Assembly (NCBI RefSeq): GCF_900113175.1 | Contig: NZ_FOOK01000002.1 | Span: forward strand, 1 to 51,917 | From: Planifilum fulgidum | GTDB taxonomy: Bacteria > Bacillota > Bacilli > Thermoactinomycetales > DSM-44946 | DNA: 51,917 nucleotides | Direction: 5' to 3' | Shown: one piece after another, positions 3,768 through 51,917 of the stretch | Layout of the letters: the number at the start of each line of letters is the position of its first letter | How positions within the stretch are numbered: position 1 is the first letter of the stretch | The notes under the pieces: model-generated | Database searches by the model: none | Seen by the model: only the letters and a program-made list of their open reading frames with translations | What the model was told of the DNA's origin: nothing | Position numbers and translations under genes: made by a program

Positions 3768-4488
3768 ATTGATTTCCCCTTTCAGGTCTTGCAAAAAACC
3801 AGCTGGCCAACCAGCCGGCGACGGCAATGACAACAAACGCCCACTGGCTCCAGGAAAGGTTCAGCCATACCGTGAGCGGTTCCCAATCAAAATAGGATAT
3901 GATCAGAAGACCGATCCCTCCCGCCAGGGACACCCATGCGAAGGTTTCCCCGGGACGCAAACGGCTTCGACCACGCCACCACCAAAACAGAATGGCGGAA
4001 AGGAGCAGGAGGCGGTATAGGTGAATCGGATGAACCCTTACCCCCTCCCCTATGATTATACCCCAGGGCAGATCGGTTGGCTTTCCCCAATTTTGAAAAA
4101 TGATCGAATAACCGATGCCGGTGAAAAGGGCGACGAGAGCCGCCGCATCCAGCCCCCGGGAAAGGGGGATTTGAAGGCGCCGAAAAGAGAGGGTAAGATA
4201 CACCGCCGTGATCCCGCCCGCGATCATCGCGCCCTTGGGCGAACCGCTCAGATACAGAATGGCGGACGGATGCCGAAGGGTCGAAAGGGGATCCGTAAAC
4301 AGGGGGCTGATTTCGTACAAAATGAAATACATCAGGAACGCTCCCAAAAACCGTTCCGACCAGCGGGCCTTGTCTTCCGGAAGAAGGCGATCCGCCGCTC
4401 TGGCCGAAAGCCAGACCAGAAGGGCCAGTGCCAACGTGGTGACGGGAAGAAGAAAAGGGCCCAACCGGACGGGCTCCGCTTCGATCAA
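3754..4488 (-). CDS. Divergent Lgt-like integral membrane protein
   Basis: 244 residues with about seven hydrophobic segments. The motif VRVHPIHLYR resembles the HPxxLYE motif of prolipoprotein diacylglyceryl transferase (Lgt), and IIGEGVRVHP sits where Lgt has its active-site region. However, the Lgt His/Gly-rich loop (HGG) is not evident and the final Glu of HPxxLYE is Arg, so normal lipoprotein transfer activity is doubtful. The gene lies between the MBL hydrolase and a TlpA gene and overlaps the latter by 14 bp, which ties it to the thiol-redox operon. Its job there is not known to me. Confidence 0.6.
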   Translation of the reverse strand: MIEAEPVRLGPFLLPVTTLALALLVWLSARAADRLLPEDKARWSERFLGAFLMYFILYEISPLFTDPLSTLRHPSAILYLSGSPKGAMIAGGITAVYLTLSFRRLQIPLSRGLDAAALVALFTGIGYSIIFQNWGKPTDLPWGIIIGEGVRVHPIHLYRLLLLSAILFWWWRGRSRLRPGETFAWVSLAGGIGLLIISYFDWEPLTVWLNLSWSQWAFVVIAVAGWLASWFFARPERGNQYESA

Positions 4489-4528
4489 GTCATCTCCCTC
4501 CTCCCAGTGGGACCCTCCCCTTGGCGGG

Positions 4529-5170
4529 TTATCTGAACCCGTGAAGAAACGGATTGGTCTCCTGTTCCCGGCCGACGGTGGTTTCCGGTCCGTGGCCCGG
4601 GCAGACCCGGGTTTCCTCGGGCAACACCATCAGATGATCGTGGATGGAGCGCATCAGGGTGTCAAAATCCCCGCCGGGAAGATCGGTCCGGCCGATCGAA
4701 CCGGCGAACAGCACATCGCCGCTCACCACCAGCCCGTCCAGAGCGTAGGTGACGCTGCCCGGAGAATGTCCCGGGGTGTGCAGCACCCGAAAGGTGTGTC
4801 CAAAAAAGACCAGGGACTCGCCGCCTTCCAGATAATGATCCGCCTCCCGGCAGCGGACGGGTTCCAACCCCGGCCACAATCCGGAGCCGTTTTTCAGGGG
4901 ATCCGTCAGCCAATCCTCTTCAAGGCGATGAACGTAAACGGGGGCGCCGGTCTTTTCCCTCACCGGCTCGACGGCGCCGATGTGGTCAAAGTGGGCATGG
5001 GTCAGCAGAACGGCCTCCACCTGTAGCCCCAACTCACCGATCCTCGTCAGCACCCGATCCGGTTCCGCCCCGGGATCGACCACCACGCCGCGACGGGAAT
5101 GTTCGTCGTAAAGCAGGTAACAATTGGCCATCAACGGCCCCAAAGCAAGCGATTCAACGCGCACGCCCAC
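4529..5170 (-). CDS. MBL-fold hydrolase, glyoxalase II-like
   Basis: 213 residues with the metallo-beta-lactamase zinc motif THAHFDH (residues 57-63), then TPGHSPGS, GDVLFAGSIGRTDLPGG and CPGHGPETT, which together mark the glyoxalase II-like branch (B. subtilis YqgX type). Candidate substrates are hydroxyacyl-thioesters such as S-lactoylglutathione analogues. It is the first gene of the redox operon, directly behind a good sigma-A promoter. Next to a CstR-like regulator a role in low-molecular-weight thiol or persulfide metabolism is possible, but the Asp-Leu-Pro-Gly-Gly loop does not by itself show persulfide dioxygenase activity. Confidence 0.85.
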   Translation of the reverse strand: MGVRVESLALGPLMANCYLLYDEHSRRGVVVDPGAEPDRVLTRIGELGLQVEAVLLTHAHFDHIGAVEPVREKTGAPVYVHRLEEDWLTDPLKNGSGLWPGLEPVRCREADHYLEGGESLVFFGHTFRVLHTPGHSPGSVTYALDGLVVSGDVLFAGSIGRTDLPGGDFDTLMRSIHDHLMVLPEETRVCPGHGPETTVGREQETNPFLHGFR

Positions 5171-5200
5171 ACCACCTTTCGGTCTTGCCGATCTTTTTTT

Positions 5201-5229
5201 ATTCTACACGGAAGATGTCACCGGATCAA
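5201..5229 (-). promoter_or_regulatory. Sigma-A promoter of the thiol-redox operon
   Basis: On the minus strand TTGATC and TAGAAT are separated by 17 bp, about 30 bp upstream of the MBL hydrolase start. No other good promoter is visible before the genes down to 343, so it may drive all seven. A CstR-type repressor site would be expected near here, but I cannot identify one by eye. Confidence 0.6.
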
Positions 5230-5317
5230 AAGAGCCCTTCGGGCGCATCAATACATGGATTGATCCAAAGCGGTTACACTAGGAACGAACCTAAGAATTC
5301 GGAAAGGAAGAAAGGTC

Positions 5318-5902
5318 ATGATGCGTGCCCTGACCCTGATTTTCCTCGCTGCCGTGTGGCTTCTGGGATGCCAACCGGCCAACAAACCTCCGGCCAATGA
5401 GTCGGCTCCTTCCCCGAATACAACCCAAAAGATTCGGGTGGACCAAACCGCTCCCGAAAGCCGCCGCACCGATCGGAATCAAGCCGTCGCCGAACGGATG
5501 GTCCGCATTGCCACAAGCTTTCCCCAGGTGAAAAGCGCCACCGCGGTCGTGGCCGGGCGATACACCATCGTCGGCATCGACGTGGATCCCACCTTGGATC
5601 GCGGGCGGGTGGGAACCCTCAAGTACAGCGTGGCCCAGGCCCTTCATGAAGATCCCCAGGGCAAGAATGCTCTGGTGACAGCCGATGTGGATCTGGTGCA
5701 GCGGCTTCGGGAATTGGCCGACGATATGCGCGCCGGCCGCCCTGCCGCCGGCATTGCCGAAGAGTTGGCGGAGATTGCCGCCCGAATCATGCCCCAACCC
5801 TCCAAGGAAGTCCCCCGGCAGGAACAGCCCCCCACCCGGCTGGATCAGGAACGGCTCAACCAAACGCCCAACCCCTCCCCCGCCGGGAAGGCGTCCCACT
5901 AA
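5318..5902 (+). CDS. ylaJ: YhcN/YlaJ-family sporulation lipoprotein
   Basis: 194 residues starting at ATG 5318 (or the second ATG at 5321), with a GGAAAGGAAG ribosome site. A signal peptide ending in the lipobox LLGC (Cys18) predicts a lipid-anchored extracytoplasmic protein. The central region, with VAERMVRIATSFPQVKSATA and a V.G..A.VGIDV-like strand, is the YhcN/YlaJ fold found in spore and forespore lipoproteins. The C-terminus is Pro/Gln-rich. Its neighbourhood with ylaI and ylaH matches the B. subtilis yla cluster, though here ylaJ is on the opposite side and separated by a PNPOx gene. Confidence 0.85.
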   Translation: MMRALTLIFLAAVWLLGCQPANKPPANESAPSPNTTQKIRVDQTAPESRRTDRNQAVAERMVRIATSFPQVKSATAVVAGRYTIVGIDVDPTLDRGRVGTLKYSVAQALHEDPQGKNALVTADVDLVQRLRELADDMRAGRPAAGIAEELAEIAARIMPQPSKEVPRQEQPPTRLDQERLNQTPNPSPAGKASH

Positions 5903-5929
5903 AAGGCCGGCGATGCGCCGGCCTTTTTT
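5903..5929 (+). terminator. Intrinsic terminator of ylaJ
   Basis: GGCCGGCG and CGCCGGCC form an 8-bp GC stem with an ATG loop, followed by TTTTTT; it begins directly after the ylaJ stop codon. Confidence 0.9.
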
Positions 5930-5939
5930 CATGCAAACA

Positions 5940-6392
5940 TCACTTCCTCAGCGCGTTCAAAACCTGGCGATCCAGCTTGGCCGCCGCCTCCTCGTCGTAC
6001 GTCTTTTCATAAACCGGTTCCTGCACGATCCGGGCCCCGTAAAACATGGCATTGCGGACCGCCTCCACCGACACGTCGATCCGGGCCAGCTTGATCACCA
6101 CCCCTTCCATCGGCTTTTCCGTCACCTGTGCCCTTCCATATACGGCATAGGTGGAATCGGGGCCGACCACGGTCAGCACGACCCGCGGATTGGCTTCCAC
6201 ATTGGTCACGATCCGGGAACGATGTCCCACGGCGAGGCGAATCCGCCCCGGTTCCGGGGCATGCACCCAGGAGACGGCGCTCACCCACGGCCCGCCGGTT
6301 TCCGCATCGACGGTGGAAAGCAGGACAAATTGTTCCCTCTGCAGTTTTTCATGAAGTTGCTCTGTCAAAACGTCCGCAATCACTTCAGCCAT
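5940..6392 (-). CDS. Pyridoxamine 5'-phosphate oxidase-fold protein
   Basis: 150 residues from the ATG at 6392, with GGGGAGG 8 nt upstream. The pattern FVLLSTVDAETGGPWVSAVS, then RIRLAVGHRSRIVTNVEANPRV, is that of the split-barrel flavin-binding PNPOx-like superfamily. Many members bind FMN or F420 or act as general-stress proteins; the actual substrate cannot be read from the sequence. The gene is single and has a long leader with a terminator-like hairpin (6432-6478) between promoter region and start, suggesting attenuation. Confidence 0.8.
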   Translation of the reverse strand: MAEVIADVLTEQLHEKLQREQFVLLSTVDAETGGPWVSAVSWVHAPEPGRIRLAVGHRSRIVTNVEANPRVVLTVVGPDSTYAVYGRAQVTEKPMEGVVIKLARIDVSVEAVRNAMFYGARIVQEPVYEKTYDEEAAAKLDRQVLNALRK

Positions 6393-6431
6393 CGCAAATC
6401 CTCCCCGTTTGTCCGCGGATGGAGGGCGCGC

Positions 6432-6478
6432 AAAAAAACGGGCCGTCGGCCCGATGCGGCGCACCCTTCCCGTTTTTT
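6432..6478 (-). promoter_or_regulatory. Attenuator-like leader upstream of the PNPOx-fold gene
   Basis: Read on the minus strand, CGGGCCG/ACGGCCCG forms a strong hairpin (6439-6453) followed by seven T, which is a textbook intrinsic terminator lying 40 bp upstream of the start codon. Just before it, AAAAAACGGG (minus strand of 6469-6478, pairing with 6433-6442) can form an alternative stem with the 3' arm and T-run. This is the geometry of a terminator/antiterminator pair. It could instead simply be a terminator for read-through from the right. Confidence 0.5.
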
Positions 6479-6570
6479 GACGGGATTTCCCCATCCCTAG
6501 TATACTAAGGTTATCCAAAAAAACGGCGAAAATGTTTCAAATGCCCGAAGAAAGCGAGCGACAAAGGTCG

Positions 6571-6747
6571 ATGAAAATTTGTTGCATCCTGTGCGATCGA
6601 TATTTTACCCCTGACAAAATGCAGATCAAAAAGCTCCGCAAACACCCGCACCGGATCATCCTCTGTCCCGAATGTCACGAGCGGATTGCGGAACGGGTCC
6701 GAAAGCGCAAAAAGCTACAATCCCTCAAGCGTCATCCGGAAGGTTGA
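6571..6747 (+). CDS. ylaI: YlaI-like small zinc-ribbon protein (DUF2197)
   Basis: 58 residues from the ATG at 6571 (AAAGGT just upstream); the open frame extends to 6532 but the added residues are not family-like. Two CxxC knuckles, C5-x2-C8 and C32-x2-C35, plus the basic tail ERVRKRKK mark the DUF2197/YlaI family. Function unknown; likely a zinc-bound small protein. Its 3' end overlaps the convergent gene at 6725-7009 by 23 bp. Confidence 0.8.
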   Translation: MKICCILCDRYFTPDKMQIKKLRKHPHRIILCPECHERIAERVRKRKKLQSLKRHPEG

Positions 6748-7009
6748 ACCGGGGTTCCGCTTCGATGTCCCTCAGAAGCTGCTCGGCCGAATCCCGGTCA
6801 AACACGCGGGATTTCCATTCCTCCCCCTGCAGGTAATGAACCCGGTAGACCGAATCATCCGACTCCAGTCGCAGTTCCTTCACCTGATGGTCTTCCCTCA
6901 AGATCTGCTCGAAGAACTGCACGGTATCCCGGGCCGAGCGATCCCTCGGCCGCGCATCTCCCACGATGCGGATCTGCAACCAGTTGAACAGCGCATCCGT
7001 CAGCTTCAT
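6725..7009 (-). CDS. Conserved small protein of the yla cluster, function unknown
   Basis: 94 residues beginning MKLTDALFNWLQIRIVGDARP and ending acidic. I recognise the pattern as a conserved, uncharacterised protein found beside ylaH and ylaI in Bacillales; no catalytic motif is evident. It follows the ylaH-like gene by 3 bp and is surely co-transcribed with it and with nfo. Alpha/beta composition with alternating hydrophobics suggests a small folded cytosolic protein. Confidence 0.75.
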   Translation of the reverse strand: MKLTDALFNWLQIRIVGDARPRDRSARDTVQFFEQILREDHQVKELRLESDDSVYRVHYLQGEEWKSRVFDRDSAEQLLRDIEAEPRFNLPDDA

Positions 7010-7012
7010 GCC

Positions 7013-7309
7013 CTACACCTTCTTCCCCTTTTGCTCTTCCGACCGGGATTTCCTCTCCGTCATGGCCATGCGGATGCGGGCCACGCCGATCAGAACCACG
7101 CTGATGACCAGGATGGGAACGATCGGAAATTGCAGCATGTGGAAGAGGAGAAGCAGGAAACACCCCAGCGCAAGGAACACATACACCACCAGCGCCTTCA
7201 AGGGAGGGAGGGGACGGGCAAAGGCGACTTTGTAAACGATCCCCGTCAGGATGAGAATGACAAAGTAGGCGACAACCGGCCGTTCCAGAGCTTGGTCGAT
7301 GATTTCCAT
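7013..7309 (-). CDS. ylaH: YlaH-like membrane protein
   Basis: 98 residues with three hydrophobic helices (about 13-26, 37-58, 63-78) and a basic, hydrophilic C-terminus, as in B. subtilis YlaH. Function unknown. It lies 15 bp downstream of nfo and 3 bp upstream of the 94-residue gene, forming a tight minus-strand operon. Confidence 0.75.
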   Translation of the reverse strand: MEIIDQALERPVVAYFVILILTGIVYKVAFARPLPPLKALVVYVFLALGCFLLLLFHMLQFPIVPILVISVVLIGVARIRMAMTERKSRSEEQKGKKV

Positions 7310-7324
7310 CCAGGTTCCCTCCGA

Positions 7325-8167
7325 TCAGGCTGTCCCGTTTTCCTTCAGGGTATGGAGAAGGCGAATCTCCTCCGCATATTCCGCTTCATCCTCCACAGGG
7401 GTCTCCAGGATCACCGGCAACCCCGCAAAGGCCTCGCAGGTCAAAAAACGGGCCAGTGCCGCCGAGCCGATCTCCCCTTGACCGATTTTGGCATGCCGGT
7501 CCTTCCGGCTGTTGAAGGGGGCTTTGCTGTCGTTGAAATGAATCGCCGTCAGATGCTCCAGATATCCCGTCTCCTCCATGGTGCGGACCAATTCGTCGAA
7601 ACTTTCCTCCGACCAGGCGCCGGCGGCGAATCCGTGGCAGGTGTCGAAGCAAAAACCGATTTTTTCGGGATAATCGGTCGCTTCCCGAATCGCCACCAGA
7701 TCGGCGATGGTCAGGCCCAACTCCGAGCCCTGCCCCGCCGTGTTTTCCAAAAGGAGCTTGGTCCCTCCCTCATACCCTTCCAGGATCAGGTTGAGGGTTT
7801 CGATCATGCGGCGGGTTCCGTATTCCACGCCCTTTCCGACGTGTTTCCCGCAATGGACCACGGCTCCGACCGCCCCGTACGCCTCCGCGATCCGCAAATC
7901 TTCCTTGATGGAACGGATGGTCACCTCGCGCAGGTCTTCCTTGGGAGTGGACAAATTGGTGATGTACGGTGTGTGGGCCACCAGAACCAGCCCGTTTTCG
8001 CGGCAATAGCGGACCCCTTTTTCCGCATCCTCCAGGTCCAGTTTTTTAGGCCTCAGACCCCGGGGATTTTTGGTAAACACTTGAAAGGCTTCGGCCCCCA
8101 GCTCCTTGGCCCGCTGAGAGGCCTTCAAAAACCCCTTGGACACGCTGATGTGACAACCGATCTTCAT
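7325..8167 (-). CDS. nfo: Endonuclease IV (AP endonuclease)
   Basis: 280 residues from the ATG at 8167, preceded by AGGAGG at 8-nt spacing. The TIM-barrel zinc-site motifs are all present in order: MKIGCHIS, VVHCGKHVG, LLLENTAG, FCFDTCHGFAAG, IHFNDSK, RHAKIGQGEIG and ILETP. The enzyme cleaves 5' of abasic sites in base-excision repair. It lies just downstream of a DNA glycosylase gene, which would make the abasic sites it cuts. A GC-rich hairpin (8192-8218) sits between the two genes but has only a poor T-run. Confidence 0.95.
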   Translation of the reverse strand: MKIGCHISVSKGFLKASQRAKELGAEAFQVFTKNPRGLRPKKLDLEDAEKGVRYCRENGLVLVAHTPYITNLSTPKEDLREVTIRSIKEDLRIAEAYGAVGAVVHCGKHVGKGVEYGTRRMIETLNLILEGYEGGTKLLLENTAGQGSELGLTIADLVAIREATDYPEKIGFCFDTCHGFAAGAWSEESFDELVRTMEETGYLEHLTAIHFNDSKAPFNSRKDRHAKIGQGEIGSAALARFLTCEAFAGLPVILETPVEDEAEYAEEIRLLHTLKENGTA

Positions 8168-8298
8168 GGAAAATCGCCTCCTGAAAGAAGAGGGCGCCTG
8201 CATTCCCGGCGGGCGCCCAAGACCTTTTCCATGATACCATTTTCCCCGGCTCTGCCGCAACAGGAAGCCGCTGTTCCCCCCGGCCGTCCCGTCGCTTG

Positions 8299-9072
8299 TC
8301 AAGGAAGGAATCCGACCCCGCCGCTTCCCAAATGACAGGTGACCCTAAGCGGGCATTCCGGGCATCGGGGGGCCCTCTTCCGGCAGAACTCTTTTCCCAG
8401 TTCCACCAAGTGCGCGTGCAGCAACTGGAGCTGAACGGGATCCTGAATCTCCCGAAGCACCTCTTCGCGGATCTTCTCTCTCGTCAAGGCCTCTCCGAAC
8501 CAGCGGGAAGCGATTCGCTCCGCATACGCATCCCCGACAAACGCCGGGCGGTCAAACACGTAAAGCAGGATCGTGTCCGCGGTCTCCGGCCCGATCCCTC
8601 GGATTTGAAGCAGCCGGCCGCGGAGGTCGGAGGCGTTTTCCGCACCGTCCCGAACCCGGAGGAAGAGGCGGCACACCTCCCGGATCGCCGGCACTTTGCT
8701 CCGGTAAAAACCCGCCGGCCGGACGGCCGCGGCCAATTCCTCATCCGACGCCTGAAGGACGGCATTCGGGTCGGTCAAGCCGCGCTCCCTCAATCTCCCG
8801 ATCGCCCGTCTGGCGTTTTGCCAGGTGGTCCGCTGGACCAACACGCTTCCCAGGCACCGAAAAAAGCGATTTTCCCCTTCCCACCATTGGTCCGCCGTCA
8901 GCTCCGGCCTCCAGCGGAAAAGTTCCTCCCGAAGCAGGCCCCAGCTGCGCTTTGGCGACGGCTCTCCCCGTCTTTTTGCGCCGCCGGCCTCCCCCTCATT
9001 CCGGGAGCCATCGACCGCACAATGCACCGAATCCGAAGGGGATTGGCTCTTCCCGCAGGGACGCCGGTTCAA
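8299..9072 (-). CDS. HhH-GPD DNA glycosylase with FeS cluster, MagIII-like
   Basis: Up to 257 residues if the TTG at 9072, overlapping the stop of the FAH gene, is the start; the true start may be further in because the first 40 residues are not family-like. The HhH motif IRGIGPETADTILLY (157-171) carries Glu163 where endonuclease III has its catalytic Lys, while the general Asp is present (VGDAY, D181). Four cysteines C230-x6-C237-x2-C240-x5-C246 form the FeS loop. The missing Lys points to a monofunctional glycosylase, like 3-methyladenine glycosylase MagIII, rather than an AP lyase. Its neighbour nfo would process the product. Confidence 0.8.
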   Translation of the reverse strand: MNRRPCGKSQSPSDSVHCAVDGSRNEGEAGGAKRRGEPSPKRSWGLLREELFRWRPELTADQWWEGENRFFRCLGSVLVQRTTWQNARRAIGRLRERGLTDPNAVLQASDEELAAAVRPAGFYRSKVPAIREVCRLFLRVRDGAENASDLRGRLLQIRGIGPETADTILLYVFDRPAFVGDAYAERIASRWFGEALTREKIREEVLREIQDPVQLQLLHAHLVELGKEFCRKRAPRCPECPLRVTCHLGSGGVGFLP

Positions 9073-9827
9073 GGCGCGACCACCCGGTTTGAAAGGGTCC
9101 CGATGCCCTCAATGGTGATTTCCACTTCATCCCCCGGCGTAAGAGGCCCCACGCCGCTCGGCGTTCCGGTCAGGATCACATCGCCGGGTTCCAGGGGAAA
9201 GACGGAGGAAATAAACTCCACCAGCACGGGAACGGGATGAATCAGATCCGACGTGCGGCCGTCCTGCCGGATCTCCCCGTTCACCCGGCAGCGAACCGGC
9301 AAATCCGACGGGTCGAGCTCCGTCTCGATCGCCGGCCCCAGGGGCTTGAAGGTATCGAAGGACTTGGCTCGGGTGTTTTGGCCGTCGCGGGTCTGCAAAA
9401 CCCGGTTGGAAACATCGTTGGCACAGGTGTAGCCGAAGATGTACTCTTCGGCCCTTTCCCGCGGAATGTTTTTTCCCCGCTTGCCGATCACGACCGCCAA
9501 TTCCGCCTCATGATCGATTCGATCCTCCAGATTGGGCAGGCGGATCGCCTCGCCGGGGCCGACGACGGCGGTGGGGGACACCATGAACATCAACGGTTCC
9601 TCCGGCAGGGGTTTTCCCTGCTCCCTGGCGTGTTCCCGGTAGTTGAGCCCGATGGCGATCAGCTTGTTGGGAACCAGAGGGGCGAGCAGGCGAACCTCTC
9701 CCGCCGGCAGGGACTCCCCCGTTTCGGAAAAAGCGCCGAACAGCTCCCCCTCCACCGGATGGATCCTCCCCTCGCGCCACACGCCGTAACCGACGGTTCC
9801 TCGATGCTCGTATCGGACAATTTTCAT
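9069..9827 (-). CDS. Fumarylacetoacetate hydrolase (FAH)-family protein
   Basis: 252 residues. The FAH-domain motifs are clear: IGLNYREHA, FMVSPTAVVGPGE, the metal-binding DHEAELAVVIGKRG, GYTCANDVSNR, and LTGTPSGVGPL near the end. Members act as hydrolases, decarboxylases or isomerases on diketo-acids such as acylpyruvates or 5-carboxymethyl-2-hydroxymuconate; which one cannot be read here. No aromatic-degradation genes are nearby, so an acylpyruvase or oxaloacetate-decarboxylase-type housekeeping role seems more likely. Its stop overlaps the TTG start of the glycosylase gene. Confidence 0.88.
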   Translation of the reverse strand: MKIVRYEHRGTVGYGVWREGRIHPVEGELFGAFSETGESLPAGEVRLLAPLVPNKLIAIGLNYREHAREQGKPLPEEPLMFMVSPTAVVGPGEAIRLPNLEDRIDHEAELAVVIGKRGKNIPRERAEEYIFGYTCANDVSNRVLQTRDGQNTRAKSFDTFKPLGPAIETELDPSDLPVRCRVNGEIRQDGRTSDLIHPVPVLVEFISSVFPLEPGDVILTGTPSGVGPLTPGDEVEITIEGIGTLSNRVVAP

Positions 9828-9920
9828 CGTTCATCCCCTTTTCCGATGACTTGCAAGGTCTAACAGCCGGAATGCCTGGGAGAGGCCGCTTCACCGGTCT
9901 CTCCCGGACCGGCCGGAGCC

Positions 9921-11420
9921 TCAATGGCCGGCGAATTGGATGGCCAGCTGGATCAGCGTGCGGACCCCAACTCCCGTGCCTCCTTCGCCGTGTATGCCCC
10001 GGGCTTTTCTGGAATGAACGGTTCCCGCGATATCCAGGTGAACCCAGGGCGTCTCCCCGACAAACTGTTTGAGGAACAGCGCTCCCTGGATCGCTCCGGC
10101 TTCGGAAATTCCGCCGTGGTTTCTCAGATCAGCCACCGAACTGCGCAGCCATTCCTCGTACTCCTGGACCAGGGGAAGCTCCCACACCCTCTCTCCGGCC
10201 AAGCGGGCGGCCATCTTCACTTCCTCGCCCCAGGAAGCGTCATTGGTCATCAGGCCCGTCACTTCCCTGCCCAGAGCCACCACAATCGCTCCCGTGAGGG
10301 TGGCCACATCCACCAAACGGGTCGCGCCCAGCCGGCGGGCGTAGGCGAGGGCGTCGGCCAGGATCAGCCTTCCCTCGGCGTCGGTGTGCTCGATTTCAAT
10401 GGTTTTCCCGCTGAAGGACCGGATCACGTCCCCCGGGCGAAATCCCCTTCCATCCACCAAGTTCTCACAGGTCGGGACCACCGCGATCACATTGCCGTGG
10501 GGCTTGAGGGAACCGATTCCCTCCATCGCGGCGATCACCGCGGCGGCGCCGGCCATGTCCTCCTTCATCCTGTTCATGGACTTGGCAGGCTTCACCTGGA
10601 TGCCTCCGCTGTCAAAGGTGATGCCTTTACCCACCAGTCCCAGCACCTCTTTGTTCTCCGGCGCGCCGTAATAGGAGAGGACGATCATCCGGGGAGGATT
10701 GTCGCTTCCCCGGGAGACGGCCAACAGCCCGCCCATGTTCATCGCTTCGATCCGGTTTTCATCCAGGATATCCACCTTCAGACCGTGCCGTTTCGCCACC
10801 TCCGCGGCCTGATCCGCCAAGGCTGCGGGAGTGAGGCGGTTCGCCGGCTCGTTGACCCAGGTGCGGGCCAAATTGGTGGCGCGGGCGAACACCTTCCCCC
10901 GCTCCAGGCCGGCATTCGCTCCGGAGGCGGACAAGCCGGAAAGGGAGAGAAAAACGGTGGCGAGGGAAGATTCCTTCTTTTCTCCCCTGTACCCCCCGTA
11001 GGTATACGCCCCGAGCTCCACACCCTCCACCGCCGCCTGAACGAGGTCGGAAACATTTTTTCCTTCCGCGAGGGACTCGGGCAACGCGATTCCCAGATGC
11101 TTCAACCCCCGTTCCACCGCCCTCCGGGCGACGGCAGCAAACCCGTTGCGCAGGCGGTCCGCATCCAGCTCCTTTTCTTTTCCCATTCCCACGACAAAAA
11201 CCCGTTTGGCGGGAATTTTGTCCCAGGTGTGCAACAGGGTGATCTCCCCGTTTTTTCCGGTGATTTCTCCATCGGCAATCAACCGGGAAATCCGGAAATC
11301 CAGCATCTCATCCACTGCCCTTACATCTTCGCGAACGGCCTTTCCTTCTTCGGTGTGCAGGACGACAATCCCGTCAACGGCCAATTGGGGCAACGGTTCC
11401 TGGGTCACTTTCCACTCCAC
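9921..11420 (-). CDS. pepA: Leucyl aminopeptidase (M17, PepA)
   Basis: 499 residues from a GTG at 11420 behind AAGGAGG at 8-9 nt; the open frame goes further upstream but lacks family sequence there. The C-terminal catalytic domain has the M17 metal-binding motifs GKGITFDSGG, MKEDMAGAAAV and the signature HTDAEGRLILADALAY. It removes N-terminal residues, especially Leu, from peptides in the cytosol. Normal length for the family. A terminator-like hairpin precedes the gene at 11457-11485. Confidence 0.95.
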   Translation of the reverse strand: MEWKVTQEPLPQLAVDGIVVLHTEEGKAVREDVRAVDEMLDFRISRLIADGEITGKNGEITLLHTWDKIPAKRVFVVGMGKEKELDADRLRNGFAAVARRAVERGLKHLGIALPESLAEGKNVSDLVQAAVEGVELGAYTYGGYRGEKKESSLATVFLSLSGLSASGANAGLERGKVFARATNLARTWVNEPANRLTPAALADQAAEVAKRHGLKVDILDENRIEAMNMGGLLAVSRGSDNPPRMIVLSYYGAPENKEVLGLVGKGITFDSGGIQVKPAKSMNRMKEDMAGAAAVIAAMEGIGSLKPHGNVIAVVPTCENLVDGRGFRPGDVIRSFSGKTIEIEHTDAEGRLILADALAYARRLGATRLVDVATLTGAIVVALGREVTGLMTNDASWGEEVKMAARLAGERVWELPLVQEYEEWLRSSVADLRNHGGISEAGAIQGALFLKQFVGETPWVHLDIAGTVHSRKARGIHGEGGTGVGVRTLIQLAIQFAGH

Positions 11421-11456
11421 AGTCCCGGCCTCCTTCTCCCTTGATGGATTGCAACA

Positions 11457-11485
11457 GAAAAAGTGTACCTCTTGCGAGATACACT
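11457..11485 (-). terminator. Intrinsic terminator between the 63-residue gene and pepA
   Basis: On the minus strand AAGTGTA pairs with TACACTT, extended by CTC/GAG around a GCAA loop, followed by TTTTTC. It ends transcription of the small gene at 11552-11743 or attenuates pepA, whose start is 37 bp away. Confidence 0.65.
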
Positions 11486-11551
11486 TCAACCTTCGACACG
11501 ATGTTTCCCAATCCTTTTCGGAAGGCCGGATTTTCTGAAAGCGACCCCCGC

Positions 11552-11743
11552 CTACAGAGCTTCCAGCATCAACATTTCCCGGCGAAGTTCCTCCAGGCGT
11601 GCCTTGCACTGATCGATTCGGTGAGTGTTGTTTTCGATCAAAGCTTCGTAAAGAAGGGCCAGCTCGTAATCCAGTTCCAGTCGGAGAACGGGGATCCGTT
11701 TCTCCGGTTCCCGGCACTTGTAAGCTTTAATCACATCTTCCAC
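11552..11743 (-). CDS. Small hypothetical helical protein
   Basis: 63 residues from a GTG at 11743 with AGGGGGG upstream. The sequence is charged, without Gly-rich stretches, and looks like two helices (LELDYELALLYEALIEN and CKARLEELRREMLMLEAL), so a coiled coil or helical hairpin is likely. I do not recognise the family. It is followed by its own terminator and is probably monocistronic. Confidence 0.65.
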   Translation of the reverse strand: MEDVIKAYKCREPEKRIPVLRLELDYELALLYEALIENNTHRIDQCKARLEELRREMLMLEAL

Positions 11744-12091
11744 AGTTCCGCTGCCCCCCTTTTTGCGAATGGATGCCTCATCGGATCGGATGCGCCTTCA
11801 TCCCCATCATTTTCCATCGGCGATTCTGGATACAGGATGCCCCCTTGGCGGTCAAAATAAACCCCCGCACACCCTATAAGGAAACCAAACCGCCCGCAAC
11901 GGCGGAAAAAGCCGGCATCCTCCTTTTTCGGATCCGACAAAATGGCGGAGGAACGGGGACTCTTTCTTTCACCATACGTTCCGCTCTCAGAGAAGGTAAC
12001 GGCCCCTTCCCCCATTGCGCACCATCCATGTTTTTCCGTTCTGTTCTCCTTTATGCTAGAATGAAGAAAAGCGCTTGGCAGGTGAAAAACC
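11744..12091. other. Intergenic region between divergent genes (348 bp)
   Basis: Upstream of both the 63-residue gene and yktB. A possible -10 box TAGAAT at 12057-12062 lies 30 bp before the yktB start. A 149-residue minus-strand reading frame crosses it, but its composition and lack of a ribosome site do not support a gene. No terminator or RNA structure stands out. Confidence 0.6.
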
Positions 12092-12736
12092 ATGAAACCG
12101 ACCGGTTTCACCAAGGAAGATTTCGAAGTCTTTGCGATCCCCGGCCTCGACTCCCGGATGGAAGCCCTGAAAGCGCGCATCCGTCCGAAGTTGGAAGCGA
12201 TCGGGGAAGCCGTGGTTCCCTTCCTCTCCTCCCGGCTCGGGGAACCGGTCTACGCCCACGTGGCCAAACACGCCCGGCGGACCGTCCATCCTCCGGATGA
12301 CACCTGGGTGGCCTGGGCGACCAACAAACGGGGATACAAGGCTCACCCCCATTTCCAGACGGGGCTGTGGCAAACCCATTTGTTCGTCGTGTTCGCCCTG
12401 ATTTACGAATCCCCGGACAAGGGAGCCTTCGCCCGCAACCTGAAAGAACGGCTGAATGAAATCTGGCCGTCGATTCCCGACCATTTCCTGCTGTCGGAGG
12501 ATCACACGAAACCGGAAGCGGTCCGGAAGGGAGATTTGTCCCTCGACCAGGTGCGGCAGCGGCTGGACCGGCTGGAAACCGTGAAAAAGGCGGAGTTTCT
12601 GTGCGGCATCCACCTGGACCGCAACGACCCGGTGGTGGGGGATCCGGATCGCCTCGTAAGCACCATTGAAGAGACCATCGACAAGCTCCTTCCCCTCTAC
12701 CGGCTCGCCGCGAGCGTGCGGGTTACCCAAGGATAA
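12092..12736 (+). CDS. yktB: YktB-like protein (DUF1054/UPF0637)
   Basis: 214 residues from the ATG at 12092; GCAGGTGA is 6-12 nt upstream. The features FTKEDFEVFAIPGLDSRMEALK at the start, HPHFQTGLWQTHLFV in the middle and FLLSEDHTKPEA are those of the YktB/DUF1054 family, which is widespread in Bacillales but has no assigned function. Length matches the family. A hairpin at 12870-12894 may end its transcript. Confidence 0.85.
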   Translation: MKPTGFTKEDFEVFAIPGLDSRMEALKARIRPKLEAIGEAVVPFLSSRLGEPVYAHVAKHARRTVHPPDDTWVAWATNKRGYKAHPHFQTGLWQTHLFVVFALIYESPDKGAFARNLKERLNEIWPSIPDHFLLSEDHTKPEAVRKGDLSLDQVRQRLDRLETVKKAEFLCGIHLDRNDPVVGDPDRLVSTIEETIDKLLPLYRLAASVRVTQG

Positions 12737-34610: not shown

Positions 34611-37600
34611 TCAGTCCTCCTCTTCCCCAGAATCGCCGGACGGGGCGATCGACTGAATCGTGGAAACGACTTCTTCCGAAGAGGCGCCTTCGGAGATCTC
34701 CCTTGCATCTCCGTTGAGCAGAAACGCGTCCGGTACCTGTTCCCGTTCCTCCTCCTCCGTCGCTGAAGCCGGTTCGGCTTCCCCGGGGGACAGCTCCTCA
34801 GCGGCCGGATCGGGGCGCCCCATTCCGATCCAGAAAACCGTGCCCTCCACCCGCGATTCGATGGTTCCGTCGTGTTGTATGGCCAGGGTGAAGGATTCCG
34901 TTTTTCTTTCCCGGAGAAGCGCCCAGCAGCCGGATCGGTCGGTCATCGCCACCACCACGTAACCCTCATGGGCAAAGGGGAAATCCAGCGGCACCTCCAC
35001 TTCGGTTTCCCGTTCGGACTCACTGATCGAAAAGGGCGCGTTTCCGCACTGCATCACCGGCGGGAAAAAAACCGGGAAATTCAACTTTTCCGGACCGATG
35101 GAACCGTCCGCGATCTTTTCGCCGGTCACCGCCTGGTCCGCCAGAGCTTCACCGGTGACGCACCGCGGAGAAAGATGCTCGGAAGCGATCGCTCCCTGAA
35201 CAATGTGCCGGGACGAGACCGCCCCCTCCGCCAAATGGTGTTCCATCACGCTTTCCGGCGCCAGCTTCCCGGAGCTGACCGCGCCGTCCGCCAGATGATG
35301 CCTCATCACGCTCTCGGGGGCCAATTTCGCCGAGCTGACCGCCCGTTCCGCCAAGTGGTGCCTCATCACGCTTTCGGGAGCCAGCTTCCCGGAGCCGACC
35401 GCACCCTCCGCCAAGTGCTGTTCCGTCACGCTCTCCGCCGCCAGCTTCTCCGAACTGACCGCGCCGTCCGCCAAGTGCCGCTCCGTCACGCTCCCGGCAG
35501 CCAGCTTCCCTGAGCCGACCGCGCCGTCCGCCAAGTGATGCTCCGTCACGCTTTCGGCGGAAATTTTCCCGGACGTGACGGCCCCGTCCGTCAAATGGTG
35601 TTCCATCACGCTTTCCGGCGCCAACTTCCCGGAGCTGACCGCGCCGTCCACCAGGTGATGCCTCATCACACTCTCGGGGGCCAATTTCGCCGAGCTGACC
35701 GCCCGTTCCGCCAAGTGGTGCCTCATCACGCTTTCGGGAGCCAGCTTCCCGGAGCCGACCGCACCCTCCGCCAGGTGATGCTCCGTCACGCTCCCGGCGG
35801 CCAGCTTCCCGGAGCCGACCGCGCCCTCCGCCAGGTGATGCTCCGTCACGCTCCCGGCGGCCAGCTTCCCGGAGCCGACCGCACCCTCCGCCAGGTGATG
35901 CTCCATGACGCTCTCCGGCGCCAGCTTCCCGGAGCTCACCGCGCCCTCCGCCAGGTGATGCTCCATGACGCTCTCCGGCGCCAGTTTCCCGGAGCTGACC
36001 GCGCCCTCCGCCAGGTGATTCTCCATGACGCTCTCCGGTACGAGCTTTTCGGAACTCACCGCACCCTCCGCCAAGTGATGCGCTGTTACGCTTCCCCCGG
36101 CCAGTTTATCGGAGGTGACGGCCTCATCGGTCAAATGATGACTCATTACGCTGTTGAAAGCCAGCTTTTCACCGGTGACGGCCGAATCCGCCAAATGGTG
36201 CCCCGTCACGCTCCCGGGGGCCAGCTTGTCGGCGCTGACCGCGCCGTCCGCCAGATGATAATCCTTCACGCTCGCATGGGCCAGCTTTCCGGAGGTGACG
36301 GCGCCTTCTCCGAGCTTGATGGTTGTGACGCAGTAGTCGACCAACTTGTCGGTGGATACCGATTCGGGGGCGATCTTCGATGTGGTGATGGACCGATCGG
36401 TCAGCTTGGTGCCGGAAATCGCATTGTCTGCCAAATGTTCGCCCCGGACGGCCCCCTCCTTGATATGCCGACTGCCGACGGATCGCTCTTCCAGATGGTG
36501 TTCCCCGATGGCGCCGTCGTCCACATGTCGGCCCTGGATGGCTCCATCGTCGATCGCACCGGAGCTAATGGCGCGCTCGGCAATCTTCGAACGGGTAACC
36601 GAACGGTCGGCCAAATGCTTCTCTTGAACGCTTTGGGGAACGAGATGTTCGCCGGACACCGACTGCTTTTGCAGATGATCCTGTCCGACCGAATCGGCGG
36701 CGATTTTTTCGGAGGTGACCGCGCCATCATTCAGGTGTCGGCTTTCGATGACCCGGTCCGCCAAATGCTCCTTCCTGACGGCGGCGGTGGTGAGATGGAG
36801 CGATTTTACGGACTCGGGGGACAATTTCTCGGAGGTGACGGCTCCCTTCTGCAGCTTGGAGGAGGAGACCGATTCATCGGCCAGTTTGGTGTCGTCCACG
36901 CTGTTGCTGGTCAAGTGGCGCGAAAGGATGGAACCGCTTTTGATCTTTTGCGCCGTGATGGTTTCATCCTCCAGGTGTTTGCCCTGAACGTGGCCGATCG
37001 CCAAATGATGCGACTGAATGCTGCCCTCTTTCAGTTTGGTTCCATGGATCGAACGATCGGTCAGGCGATCGCCCGGTATGCTGTTTTCCTTCAGATGTTT
37101 CGCCTGGATGGTCTCCCGCCGGATGTGATCCCCACTGACCGATTCCGGTGAAAGATGATGCTCCTTGATCGATCCGGGGGCGATTTTGGCGTCGGTGACC
37201 GCTCCTTCCGCCAATTTGGAAGCGTCGACGGAAAAGTCGGCCAAATGGTCTTTTTGGATGCTCCCGTACTGAATCTTGGAACCGTCGACGGACCGATTGG
37301 CCAGCTTTTCATTGGTCACGGCGTTGTCCGCCAAGTGATCCGTGTATACGGTCAGGCGGCGATCGGAGGGCGTCGGGTCCGCCTTTCCGGGTTCGCGGGA
37401 GGAAGACTTTTGTTCCCCGGATTCCTCCGCTCCGGAAACTTTCGCTTCATCCGACGGCCTGAGCCATGCGGATGACCGTTCGATGGAATCCGTATTTCGC
37501 TTCGTTGTCGGTTTGTTCCGACGAAACAGCTCGTTTTGTTCCTCATCCGTGATCCGGTCCAACATGTCCAGAATCCGCTCGTCCGGGAAGAGATTCCGTC

Positions 37601-37631
37601 TCGAATGCCTTGCGCTTTTTCGCTTTTTCAC
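34611..37631 (-). CDS. Giant decapeptide-repeat protein with WIAG-like C-terminal region
   Basis: 1006 residues from a GTG at 37631 behind AAAGGAAGG. A basic, disordered N-terminus (1-97) is followed by 75 exactly in-register 10-residue repeats (98-847) of the form [x-H/K-L-A-x-x-A/S-V-x-x], alternating HHLAEGAVSS-type and GKLAPESVME-type units. A non-repeat domain (about 853-960) contains CGNAPFSISESE and VFWIGMGRP, similar to the end of WIAG-tail proteins in Paenibacillus and Bacillus, then an acidic tail. No signal peptide is visible. The repeats resemble those of phage tail-fibre and beta-helical proteins, suggesting a long rod. A spore or cell-surface role is a guess. Confidence 0.9.
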   Translation of the reverse strand: MKKRKSARHSRRNLFPDERILDMLDRITDEEQNELFRRNKPTTKRNTDSIERSSAWLRPSDEAKVSGAEESGEQKSSSREPGKADPTPSDRRLTVYTDHLADNAVTNEKLANRSVDGSKIQYGSIQKDHLADFSVDASKLAEGAVTDAKIAPGSIKEHHLSPESVSGDHIRRETIQAKHLKENSIPGDRLTDRSIHGTKLKEGSIQSHHLAIGHVQGKHLEDETITAQKIKSGSILSRHLTSNSVDDTKLADESVSSSKLQKGAVTSEKLSPESVKSLHLTTAAVRKEHLADRVIESRHLNDGAVTSEKIAADSVGQDHLQKQSVSGEHLVPQSVQEKHLADRSVTRSKIAERAISSGAIDDGAIQGRHVDDGAIGEHHLEERSVGSRHIKEGAVRGEHLADNAISGTKLTDRSITTSKIAPESVSTDKLVDYCVTTIKLGEGAVTSGKLAHASVKDYHLADGAVSADKLAPGSVTGHHLADSAVTGEKLAFNSVMSHHLTDEAVTSDKLAGGSVTAHHLAEGAVSSEKLVPESVMENHLAEGAVSSGKLAPESVMEHHLAEGAVSSGKLAPESVMEHHLAEGAVGSGKLAAGSVTEHHLAEGAVGSGKLAAGSVTEHHLAEGAVGSGKLAPESVMRHHLAERAVSSAKLAPESVMRHHLVDGAVSSGKLAPESVMEHHLTDGAVTSGKISAESVTEHHLADGAVGSGKLAAGSVTERHLADGAVSSEKLAAESVTEQHLAEGAVGSGKLAPESVMRHHLAERAVSSAKLAPESVMRHHLADGAVSSGKLAPESVMEHHLAEGAVSSRHIVQGAIASEHLSPRCVTGEALADQAVTGEKIADGSIGPEKLNFPVFFPPVMQCGNAPFSISESERETEVEVPLDFPFAHEGYVVVAMTDRSGCWALLRERKTESFTLAIQHDGTIESRVEGTVFWIGMGRPDPAAEELSPGEAEPASATEEEEREQVPDAFLLNGDAREISEGASSEEVVSTIQSIAPSGDSGEEED
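35091..37340 (-). repeat. 75-unit decapeptide repeat region (30-bp units)
   Basis: Every 30 bp encodes one decapeptide with no insertions or deletions over 2250 bp. Units near the N-terminal end are diverged, whereas units 43-71 (35211-36080) are nearly identical at the DNA level with a 60-bp super-period, which points to recent unequal crossing-over or gene conversion in that part. Confidence 0.9.
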
Positions 37632-37732
37632 GTTATCCTTCCTTTCATCCCGATTCTAACCACAGATATATTCGCCTTGGACGATCGCGGAAACCGCGGA
37701 CACGCGAAAATAGGCATGCGTCCCCTGTCCAC

Positions 37733-51013: not shown

Positions 51014-51917
51014 GTTTCAATCCCTCATAGGTAACCTACAAACATGAGCTGGAAAGAACATCCCGGCGAATCCGATATCGTTTCAATCCCTTATAGGTAA
51101 CCTACAAACCGATGTATTCGGAACTTGCGGGGTCGATGCTTCCCTTGTTTCAATCCCTCATAGGTAACCTACAAACCGACGGAGTAGTGGTCGGGAACCA
51201 TGAGCAGCGAATTTAGTTTCAATCCCTCATAGGTAACCTACAAACTTTGGATAAAAGCGGAGAGTCAAGCGGAAAAGGCCCTTTTGAGTTTCAATCCCTT
51301 ATAGGTAACCTACAAACTTTTTGTGTGGACCATCCCTCTGTTTATCGCACTGTAGTTTCAATCCCTTATAGGTAACCTACAAACTCAATTGACATTCCTC
51401 ACCTGCCGTGAGGAATCCGCGTTTCAATCCCTTATAGGTAACCTACAAACCAAGAATATGCCGATTCGCCTTTCCGGTGGGAAAACGTTTCAATCCCTTA
51501 TAGGTAACCTACAAACTCAATTGACATTCCTCACCTGCCGTGAGGAATCCGCGTTTCAATCCCTTATAGGTAACCTACAAACCAAGAATATGCCGATTCG
51601 CCTTTCCGGTGGGAAAACGTTTCAATCCCTTATAGGTAACCTACAAACGGTTGAACGCGGGCAGGCAACGGTGAGAAAAATTGGAGTTTCAATCCCTTAT
51701 AGGTAACCTACAAACGATGAAAAACCCTGCGATTCCGAGCGTCACCAACCCGTGTTTCAATCCCTTATAGGTAACCTACAAACATCGACATCACAGAGTG
51801 GTGGTTGGTCATCGGGGTAGGTTTCAATCCCTTATAGGTAACCTACAAACTTTTCCGTCGGAGTCTCAACCTCCTGCCGCTTCAAGTGTTTCAATCCCTT
51901 ATAGGTAACCTACAAAC
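51014..51917 (-). CRISPR. CRISPR array 2 (30-nt repeats), running off the window
   Basis: The repeat begins GTTTCAATCCCTTATAGG and ends TAACCTACAAAC; 14 copies start at 51014, 51080, 51147, 51216, 51288, 51355, 51421, 51487, 51553, 51619, 51686, 51754, 51821 and 51888, the last ending at the final base. Spacers are 36-42 nt. Copies 1, 3 and 4 have CTCATAGG instead of CTTATAGG, so the left end is the older, leader-distal end. On the minus strand the repeat ends ATTGAAAC, indicating leftward transcription from a leader beyond the window. Type I-B or III are possible; no cas gene is visible. Confidence 0.95.
51385..51648 (-). repeat. Tandem duplication of two spacer-repeat units (2 x 132 bp)
   Basis: The segment 51385-51516 is repeated exactly at 51517-51648. 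It contains the spacers starting TCAATTGACATTCCTC and CAAGAATATGCCGATT with their repeats. Confidence 0.95.

Follow-up and report, generated by a model that had tools for sequence, protein, structure and literature searches.

A decapeptide-repeat protein of Planifilum fulgidum with a predicted lectin-type tip is a candidate spore-surface fibre

We analysed a 51,917-nucleotide stretch of the Planifilum fulgidum genome (contig NZ_FOOK01000002.1, positions 1 to 51,917; hereafter the window). On its reverse strand, an open reading frame (34611..37631) encodes a protein of 1006 residues that consists of an N-terminal segment, a long array of decapeptides, a WIAG-tail domain and an acidic tail. The start codon is GTG and GAAAGGAAGGA precedes it. 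The protein is probably, though far from certainly, a long trimeric filament of the spore surface, phage-fibre-like in its shaft, lectin-type at its tip and made by the mother cell. We favour this interpretation because the shaft is of phage type, the predicted fold of the tip is that of trimeric spikes, the N-terminus is conserved, the neighbouring genes of relatives include spore and glycosyltransferase genes, and a signal peptide is missing. For brevity, we refer to the gene as the fibre gene.

The array covers residues 95-853 (35073..37349, reverse strand), with 75 full units at residues 101-850. Briefly, each unit reads A-D/E/P-G/E-S/A-V-x-x-x-H/K-L. Valine, isoleucine or leucine occupies every fifth residue at 152 consecutive positions (residues 95-850). 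The longest such run in 2000 shuffles of the same protein was 9. There are seven aromatic residues in the whole array. A preliminary description of this DNA, made from its letters, had counted 75 decapeptides in unbroken 10-residue register, and that count holds. It had also described H and K half-units as alternating. Alternation of x-H-L with x-K-L is strict only from about residue 441, in the C-terminal half; H and K are mixed before it. The further claim that 870 bp are nearly homogenised was too strong. Tandem Repeats Finder (TRF) identified a 60-bp unit in 18.1 copies with 77% matches (35217-36305). Across residues 441-800 (35232..36311, reverse strand), where this 20-residue H/K unit recurs, adjacent 60-mers are 60-98% identical and exceed 80% mainly at residues 521-640.

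The array was compared between close relatives (our genomes and loci are labelled G and L). Against a genus-mate (G002), the array differs by two indels only, of 20 and 60 residues, both in the repetitive half. Elsewhere the two arrays pair unit for unit, with 76-98% matches per 50 residues; for most of the flanks the figure is 60-76%. No array indels occur in two further close pairs. Since indels are few or absent and units are conserved one by one between close pairs, the length and order of the array appear to be constrained.

Decapeptides of this kind are found in phage tail fibres. The array matched the PHROGs tail fibre profiles phrog_892 at E 1.3e-134 and phrog_28766 at E 1.9e-92. In tblastn searches, the repeats matched 88 phage records. 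Among the 20 listed, eight are named as tail, host-specificity or virion proteins and 12 are hypothetical or predicted. Sequence profile searches of the PDB matched 9eg4 orf16 (1.1e-5), which was compared by sequence only, and the fibre gp28 of cyanophage P-SCSP1u (2.6e-4). The virion has six trimers of gp28, with the distal part not resolved (PMC10575957). We found no solved structure known to reveal how such decapeptides fold.

The WIAG-tail domain occupies residues 860-939 (34815..35054, reverse strand). The cap had been called WIAG-like, and the NCBIfam model NF012201 bears this out, scoring 61.9 bits against a curated cut-off of 33 (67.5 bits in a whole-genome search). We modelled residues 660-940 with AlphaFold2, using 16 relatives. 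All six strands of the model lie in the WIAG-tail, and 63 residues have a predicted local distance difference test score (pLDDT) of at least 90. The predicted domain is a six-stranded beta-sandwich, as in H-type lectins and tailspike C-terminal domains. VIA-align gave Z 11.0 to the phage tailspike LKA1 gp49 and Z 9.0-9.1 to Helix agglutinins and discoidins. Its top 22 rows (Z 11.0 to 6.4) came without exception from phage tailspikes or fibres, pyocin fibres or lectins; this is a re-look at Foldseek's own matches and does not exclude families unlisted there. Foldseek and VIA-align group the tip with C-terminal domains of the phage tailspikes LKA1 gp49, AP22 gp54, Pam1 and phi297 and with R-pyocin fibres, Helix agglutinins, discoidins and SLL-2. 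Foldseek alone, run with a model that is mostly low-confidence, gave no PDB match below E 0.001 (best 0.0027, probability 1.00). Against viral models, 14 matches fell under 0.001; the matches include many unnamed proteins as well as some named for tail fibres or for an 'H-type lectin domain'.

Sequence comparison of the tip gave little signal. A tip profile searched against PDB sequences returned one chance-level match. Gp53-like_C was listed for 3 of 34 family members with a best E of 0.026, a faint signal that falls short of a sequence match, in a search where HMMER filters drop most matches above 0.1. Other solved examples of tailspike-type tip domains are known as trimers. The LKA1 spike is itself trimeric and has a discoidin-like domain; domains of this kind are described as likely binders of oligo- or polysaccharides that may also help to hold the trimer together (PMC5701251). 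Beyond the tip, the protein continues into an acidic tail (residues 940-1006; 34614..34814, reverse strand) that has a net charge of about -14 and is probably flexible. By comparison, seven named Paenibacillus copies end 3 residues past the WIAG match.

At the other end, the N-terminal segment (residues 1-94; 37350..37631, reverse strand) has a basic start, MKKRK, followed by a D-E..L..L motif. In 12 aligned homologues K2 is invariant and D17 nearly so, and the first 45 residues have a net charge of +6. We propose that this segment is a spore anchor. No signal peptide is apparent: within the first 60 residues, the maximum 15-residue Kyte-Doolittle mean is -0.01. The preliminary description had likewise seen none, and was right in this, but had left open how the protein would reach a surface. 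The missing leader is no puzzle, because a spore-surface protein would be made by the mother cell.

The window's own genome has no WIAG-tail match outside this gene, and the array repeats matched no second gene there. In the order to which this genome belongs, 31 of 42 genomes encode exactly one WIAG-tail protein. We looked for cap-less copies in the 11 genomes that gave no WIAG match, using 260 residues of the array as query. Nine had none, one (G006) has a copy truncated at a contig end, and a weak match in G014 is an unrelated protein. In an even draw of the phylum, 6 of 398 genomes have a WIAG-tail; these are the window's genome and five of a family, f9, that we take to be the family of Paenibacillus. 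This assignment is made because many f9 proteins share an N-terminal 'Y(Y/F)VDNPN..EL' and neighbours with named Paenibacillus loci. Within f9, the protein is present in 130 of 148 genomes (once in 120, twice in 10), in open frames of up to 4588 residues. The f9 genomes without it are all 13 sampled of genus g48 and five more. Two further families of the class gave one match each (G054, G059). The second WIAG-tail of the ten f9 genomes lies in a short open frame (272-358 residues); eight of these genomes belong to g312 (G457, G473, G485, G495, G506, G516, G526, G536) and two to g315 (G499, G510).

Named relatives, at 18 loci, come from Thermoactinomyces, Laceyella, Thermoflavimicrobium, Lihuaxuella, Croceifilum, Baia, Paenactinomyces, Marinithermofilum and Paenibacillus, the first eight of which belong to the order Thermoactinomycetales. 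Complete copies consist of a short N-terminal segment, an array and a WIAG-tail, usually with an extra acidic tail in the window's order. The N-terminal segment is basic in most relatives, and most have a D-E or D-N..EL..L motif. Arrays range from about 56 to 264 decapeptides. Most keep a single register; the phase shifts once or twice in L043, L086 and L094. Copies at L033, L036, L040, L047 and L055 are truncated by contig ends or gaps, or appear broken. In Paenibacillus terrigena (L094), a homologue of 2986 residues has 443 unbroken five-residue steps.

Genes around the fibre gene in the order were assigned by BLAST clusters, with Pfam run on representatives (L048). YheC/D ATP-grasp genes are found upstream of it in 22 of the 31 loci, four of them in 18 of those 22; three of the misses are short flanks (L036, L047, L055). 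Downstream, on the opposite strand, spoVR is present in 24 loci, within 200 bp in 19 and within 3 kb in the rest. Both are present, with the fibre gene between them, in 21 of the 31 loci, and NlpC/P60 and GNAT genes often lie in between. Seven order genomes that have the spoVR locus and no WIAG-tail match, and a short contig of G001, have no decapeptide gene there. In the window's genome, spoVR, NlpC/P60, GNAT and the YheC/D quartet stand together on another contig that lacks the fibre gene (L065, G000:C11:36000-52000, 4004-12140). The fibre gene is not encoded with phage structural genes. Six of its neighbours in the window have Pfam matches to PgpA, LigT/2-5 ligase, GNAT, PHP, AAA and SEC-C, none of them phage structural, and the neighbourhood in the order is a conserved chromosomal one. 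A role in the spore had been raised in the preliminary description and gains support from the gene neighbourhood in the order. At several order loci (L033, L038, L031), the DNA upstream of the first YheC/D gene contains CATAnnnTA sequences, which in our judgement resemble a sigma-K type -10.

We also sampled 20 loci of f9, picked mainly for few-contig genomes, with Pfam run on L039 orthologues. Glycosyltransferase (GT2) and nucleotidyltransferase genes lie near the fibre gene in 14 of the 20 loci, and one more has GT2c only. A divergent YheC/D gene lies 73-296 bp upstream in ten loci. In all ten, the glycosyltransferase genes are downstream on the strand of the fibre gene (strand and side were checked). 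Three small proteins of about 100-123 residues are also encoded nearby in 10 of the 20 loci (L138 1200-2239 and orthologues). Their L039 orthologues had no Pfam match.

We propose the following mechanism. Three chains would associate into a trimer. The C-terminal WIAG-tail, as an H-type-lectin-like beta-sandwich, would register and cap this trimer and could offer a glycan-binding face. The array would form a regular trimeric shaft, with V and L/I, five apart, filling the core. The basic N-terminal segment would fix the fibre to the spore. Expression would fall in sporulation, with synthesis in the mother cell and no need of a signal peptide, like that of coat and exosporium proteins. In Paenibacillus-type relatives, the fibre would probably be glycosylated through the nearby GT2 genes. 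In both groups, the neighbouring YheC/D ATP-grasp ligases may modify it. The acidic tail was considered as a YheC/D substrate and set aside; no clear link was found, and order loci whose tails are near-neutral (L030, L043) carry four YheC/D genes nonetheless.

The preliminary description had predicted a regular rod, either a beta-solenoid or a trimeric fibre. The trimeric fibre gains support from the cap fold and the phage-fibre repeats; the beta-solenoid does not. The array itself was modelled with low confidence. In the AlphaFold2 monomer of residues 660-940, its pLDDT was below 50. A model of the array only (residues 341-600), built with in-register relatives, reached a pLDDT of 56.5 and a predicted template modelling score (pTM) of 0.49, and the other four models 37.5-47.3. 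Confidence in the array-only model drops about every 30 residues, or three decapeptides, which is a hint only. A Foldseek search with the low-confidence array model gave one meaningless match and found no solenoid. A prediction of disorder had been named in advance as evidence against a rod. Taken literally, this is what the monomeric array gave. It does not decide the matter, because the same result would be expected of a fibre whose chains fold only on trimerisation.

A second explanation, which we think unlikely, is that the protein is a cytoplasmic or coat-internal scaffold. Here the protein would be a polyampholyte, largely disordered or only loosely ordered, that has a basic head and an acidic tail and cross-links the coat; the lectin-like tip would serve for trimerisation only. 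The low pLDDT of the array, the missing signal peptide, the basic N-terminus with an acidic C-terminal tail and the spore-gene neighbours all fit. However, a perfect register over 756 residues, few aromatics and fixed V/L positions are unexpected for disorder. Conservation of the array unit by unit, the same repeats in phage fibres and the glycosyltransferase neighbours of Paenibacillus-type loci also argue against a scaffold.

Less probable still is a monomeric beta-solenoid of the pentapeptide type, with four five-residue faces per coil and two decapeptides per turn. This would be a short stiff rod or a scaffold inside the coat; 37 coils of 0.48 nm amount to about 18 nm. The five-residue hydrophobic period is consistent with it, and one coil would correspond to the 20-residue unit that recurs. 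A HetL match was weak (E 1.8e-4, far under its cut-off). Two profile searches also matched PDB entries, which we take to be designed pentapeptide-repeat proteins, at E 0.001-0.45 and 0.0012-0.092. Conversely, a Pfam scan of the window protein returned 0 families and no Pentapeptide match. The pentapeptide-repeat consensus is [STAV][DN][LF]xx. In the array, A/S/C/T/V is found at i-2 in 9% and D/N at i-1 in 0% of the 152 positions. Solenoids of this type usually fold well in AlphaFold2, whereas confidence here was low, and Foldseek returned no solenoid for that low-confidence model. With no Pfam match, no pentapeptide signature and no Foldseek solenoid, we rejected the beta-solenoid as leading explanation.

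We consider it barely credible that a tail fibre gene of a phage or tailocin was stranded here in the chromosome. The PHROGs matches and a tip fold common to phage tailspikes and R-pyocins are in favour of this, but none of the six Pfam-tested neighbours is a phage structural gene, families of the order keep one copy, mostly in one and the same chromosomal setting, and tblastn with two WIAG-tail queries found no match better than E 0.2 among 50,697 phage records.

Several observations weigh against a spore-surface fibre. The AlphaFold2 monomer does not fold the array confidently, which leaves the shaft and the trimer as proposals. Pfam H_lectin was listed for none of the 34 family members at E up to 1, in the same filtered search as Gp53-like_C. 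Neither YheC/D nor spoVR lies in the stretch examined around the fibre gene in the window's own genome and five further order loci. In f9, 10 of the 20 loci lack YheC/D in the stretch fetched, six lack the GT2 and nucleotidyltransferase set, and five have none of these genes. The seven named Paenibacillus loci, one of which (L094) has almost no upstream stretch, include one with YheC/D, 1.4 kb away, and two with the glycosyltransferase set. spoVR was not found at any of the 20 f9 loci or at a second set of Paenibacillus-type loci. If genus g48, in which 13 of 13 genomes lack the protein, makes spores, then the protein is not needed for sporulation. Finally, the conserved element upstream of the gene does not correspond to a recognised sporulation promoter; at up to two mismatches in three genomes (G000, G003, G010), no other gene shares it.

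This promoter-like element, GTTTCC-N15-GAATATACCTA, lies at 37663..37694 on the reverse strand and has 15 of 17 fixed bases here. At this fixed spacing, 22 of the 27 order loci keep at least 14 of 17, and the conservation spans families of the order. The loci scored are also those from which the pattern was drawn up. At L035, a 17/17 site falls outside the scored stretch, most likely because the start of the open reading frame was called too far upstream. The element is kept where neighbours differ (G000, G002, G003, G019). Five whole genomes (G000, G003, G010, G015 and, as out-group, G045) were searched with a reversed-pattern control. At up to two mismatches, G000, G003 and G010 have the element at the fibre gene and nowhere else. 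In G015, the fibre-gene site has three mismatches and the one 2-mismatch site is elsewhere. At up to three mismatches, the five genomes have 35 element sites and 42 control sites (element/control: G000 5/3, G003 3/16, G010 11/7, G015 8/10, G045 8/6). The element is conserved at the fibre gene, and a shared, regulon-type promoter is rejected at up to two mismatches.

Elsewhere in the window, a CRISPR array with CRISPR-DR2 repeats spans 51014-51917. Within it, TRF detected an exact 132-bp tandem of 2.2 copies (51355-51648), in which a repeat-spacer unit pair is duplicated verbatim.

A broader proposal is more tentative, and we would sooner expect it to fail than to hold. Two large groups of spore formers, the order that includes Thermoactinomyces and the family that includes Paenibacillus, may use a phage-tail-fibre module as their standard spore filament. 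This would be a single giant trimer whose tip is of lectin type; it would be glycosylated, modified by dedicated YheC/D ATP-grasp ligases, or both, and would take the place that collagen-like BclA has in the Bacillus cereus group. If so, the poorly understood YheC/D family would gain a substrate. If the narrower interpretation as a spore-surface fibre is right, a protein of 31 of 42 order genomes and 130 of 148 f9 genomes would be a major fibre of the spore surface with a tip of sugar-binding type. That interpretation would also bear on the sticking and dispersal of spores, on the entry of phage-type fibres into cell biology and on the target of the YheC/D ligases.

The protein can be set beside several known systems. 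It is a member of NF012201, and its layout of repeats followed by the tail is common to relatives. The WIAG-tail was already known as a named domain family, and the NCBIfam entry names the domain only; the predicted tip fold, the phage-fibre nature and the spore setting are new here. In the literature searched, we found no described structure or function for the WIAG-tail, one paper with the term giving annotation only. Papers on decapeptide tail fibres, on YheC/YheD and on spore coats and appendages of Thermoactinomyces and Paenibacillus included none describing the role of the protein. The predicted tip is similar (Z 11.0-7.5) to the C-terminal beta-sandwich of phage tailspikes and fibres (LKA1 gp49, AP22 gp54 and gp53, Sf6, R-pyocin fibres) and to H-type lectins (Helix agglutinins, the discoidin C-terminal domain). 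As in tailspikes, it sits C-terminally on a long protein. Unlike these domains, with which it has no significant sequence similarity, it is encoded on the chromosome, in the order mostly among spore genes, and is followed by an acidic tail.

The shaft shares its decapeptide pattern with phage tail fibres built of A-V-T-x-x-K-L decapeptides (phrog_892, P-SCSP1u gp28, 9eg4 orf16). It differs in having its own short basic N-terminal segment and 75 units in one unbroken register. With pentapeptide-repeat proteins it shares a hydrophobic residue every five positions, but not the signature of the flanking positions or a family match. A parallel in outline is BclA of the hair-like nap on the Bacillus exosporium. 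BclA has a short N-terminal anchor, a rod of variable-copy repeats and a C-terminal beta domain that promotes trimers, and is glycosylated (PMC10470788). The window protein likewise combines a putative anchor, a rod and a predicted beta tip, and its Paenibacillus-type relatives have glycosyltransferase neighbours. In contrast to BclA, it has no collagen Gly-X-Y repeats, and both rod and tip are of phage-fibre type. We would class the two as analogous, with different folds, and do not group the window protein with BclA as a homologue.

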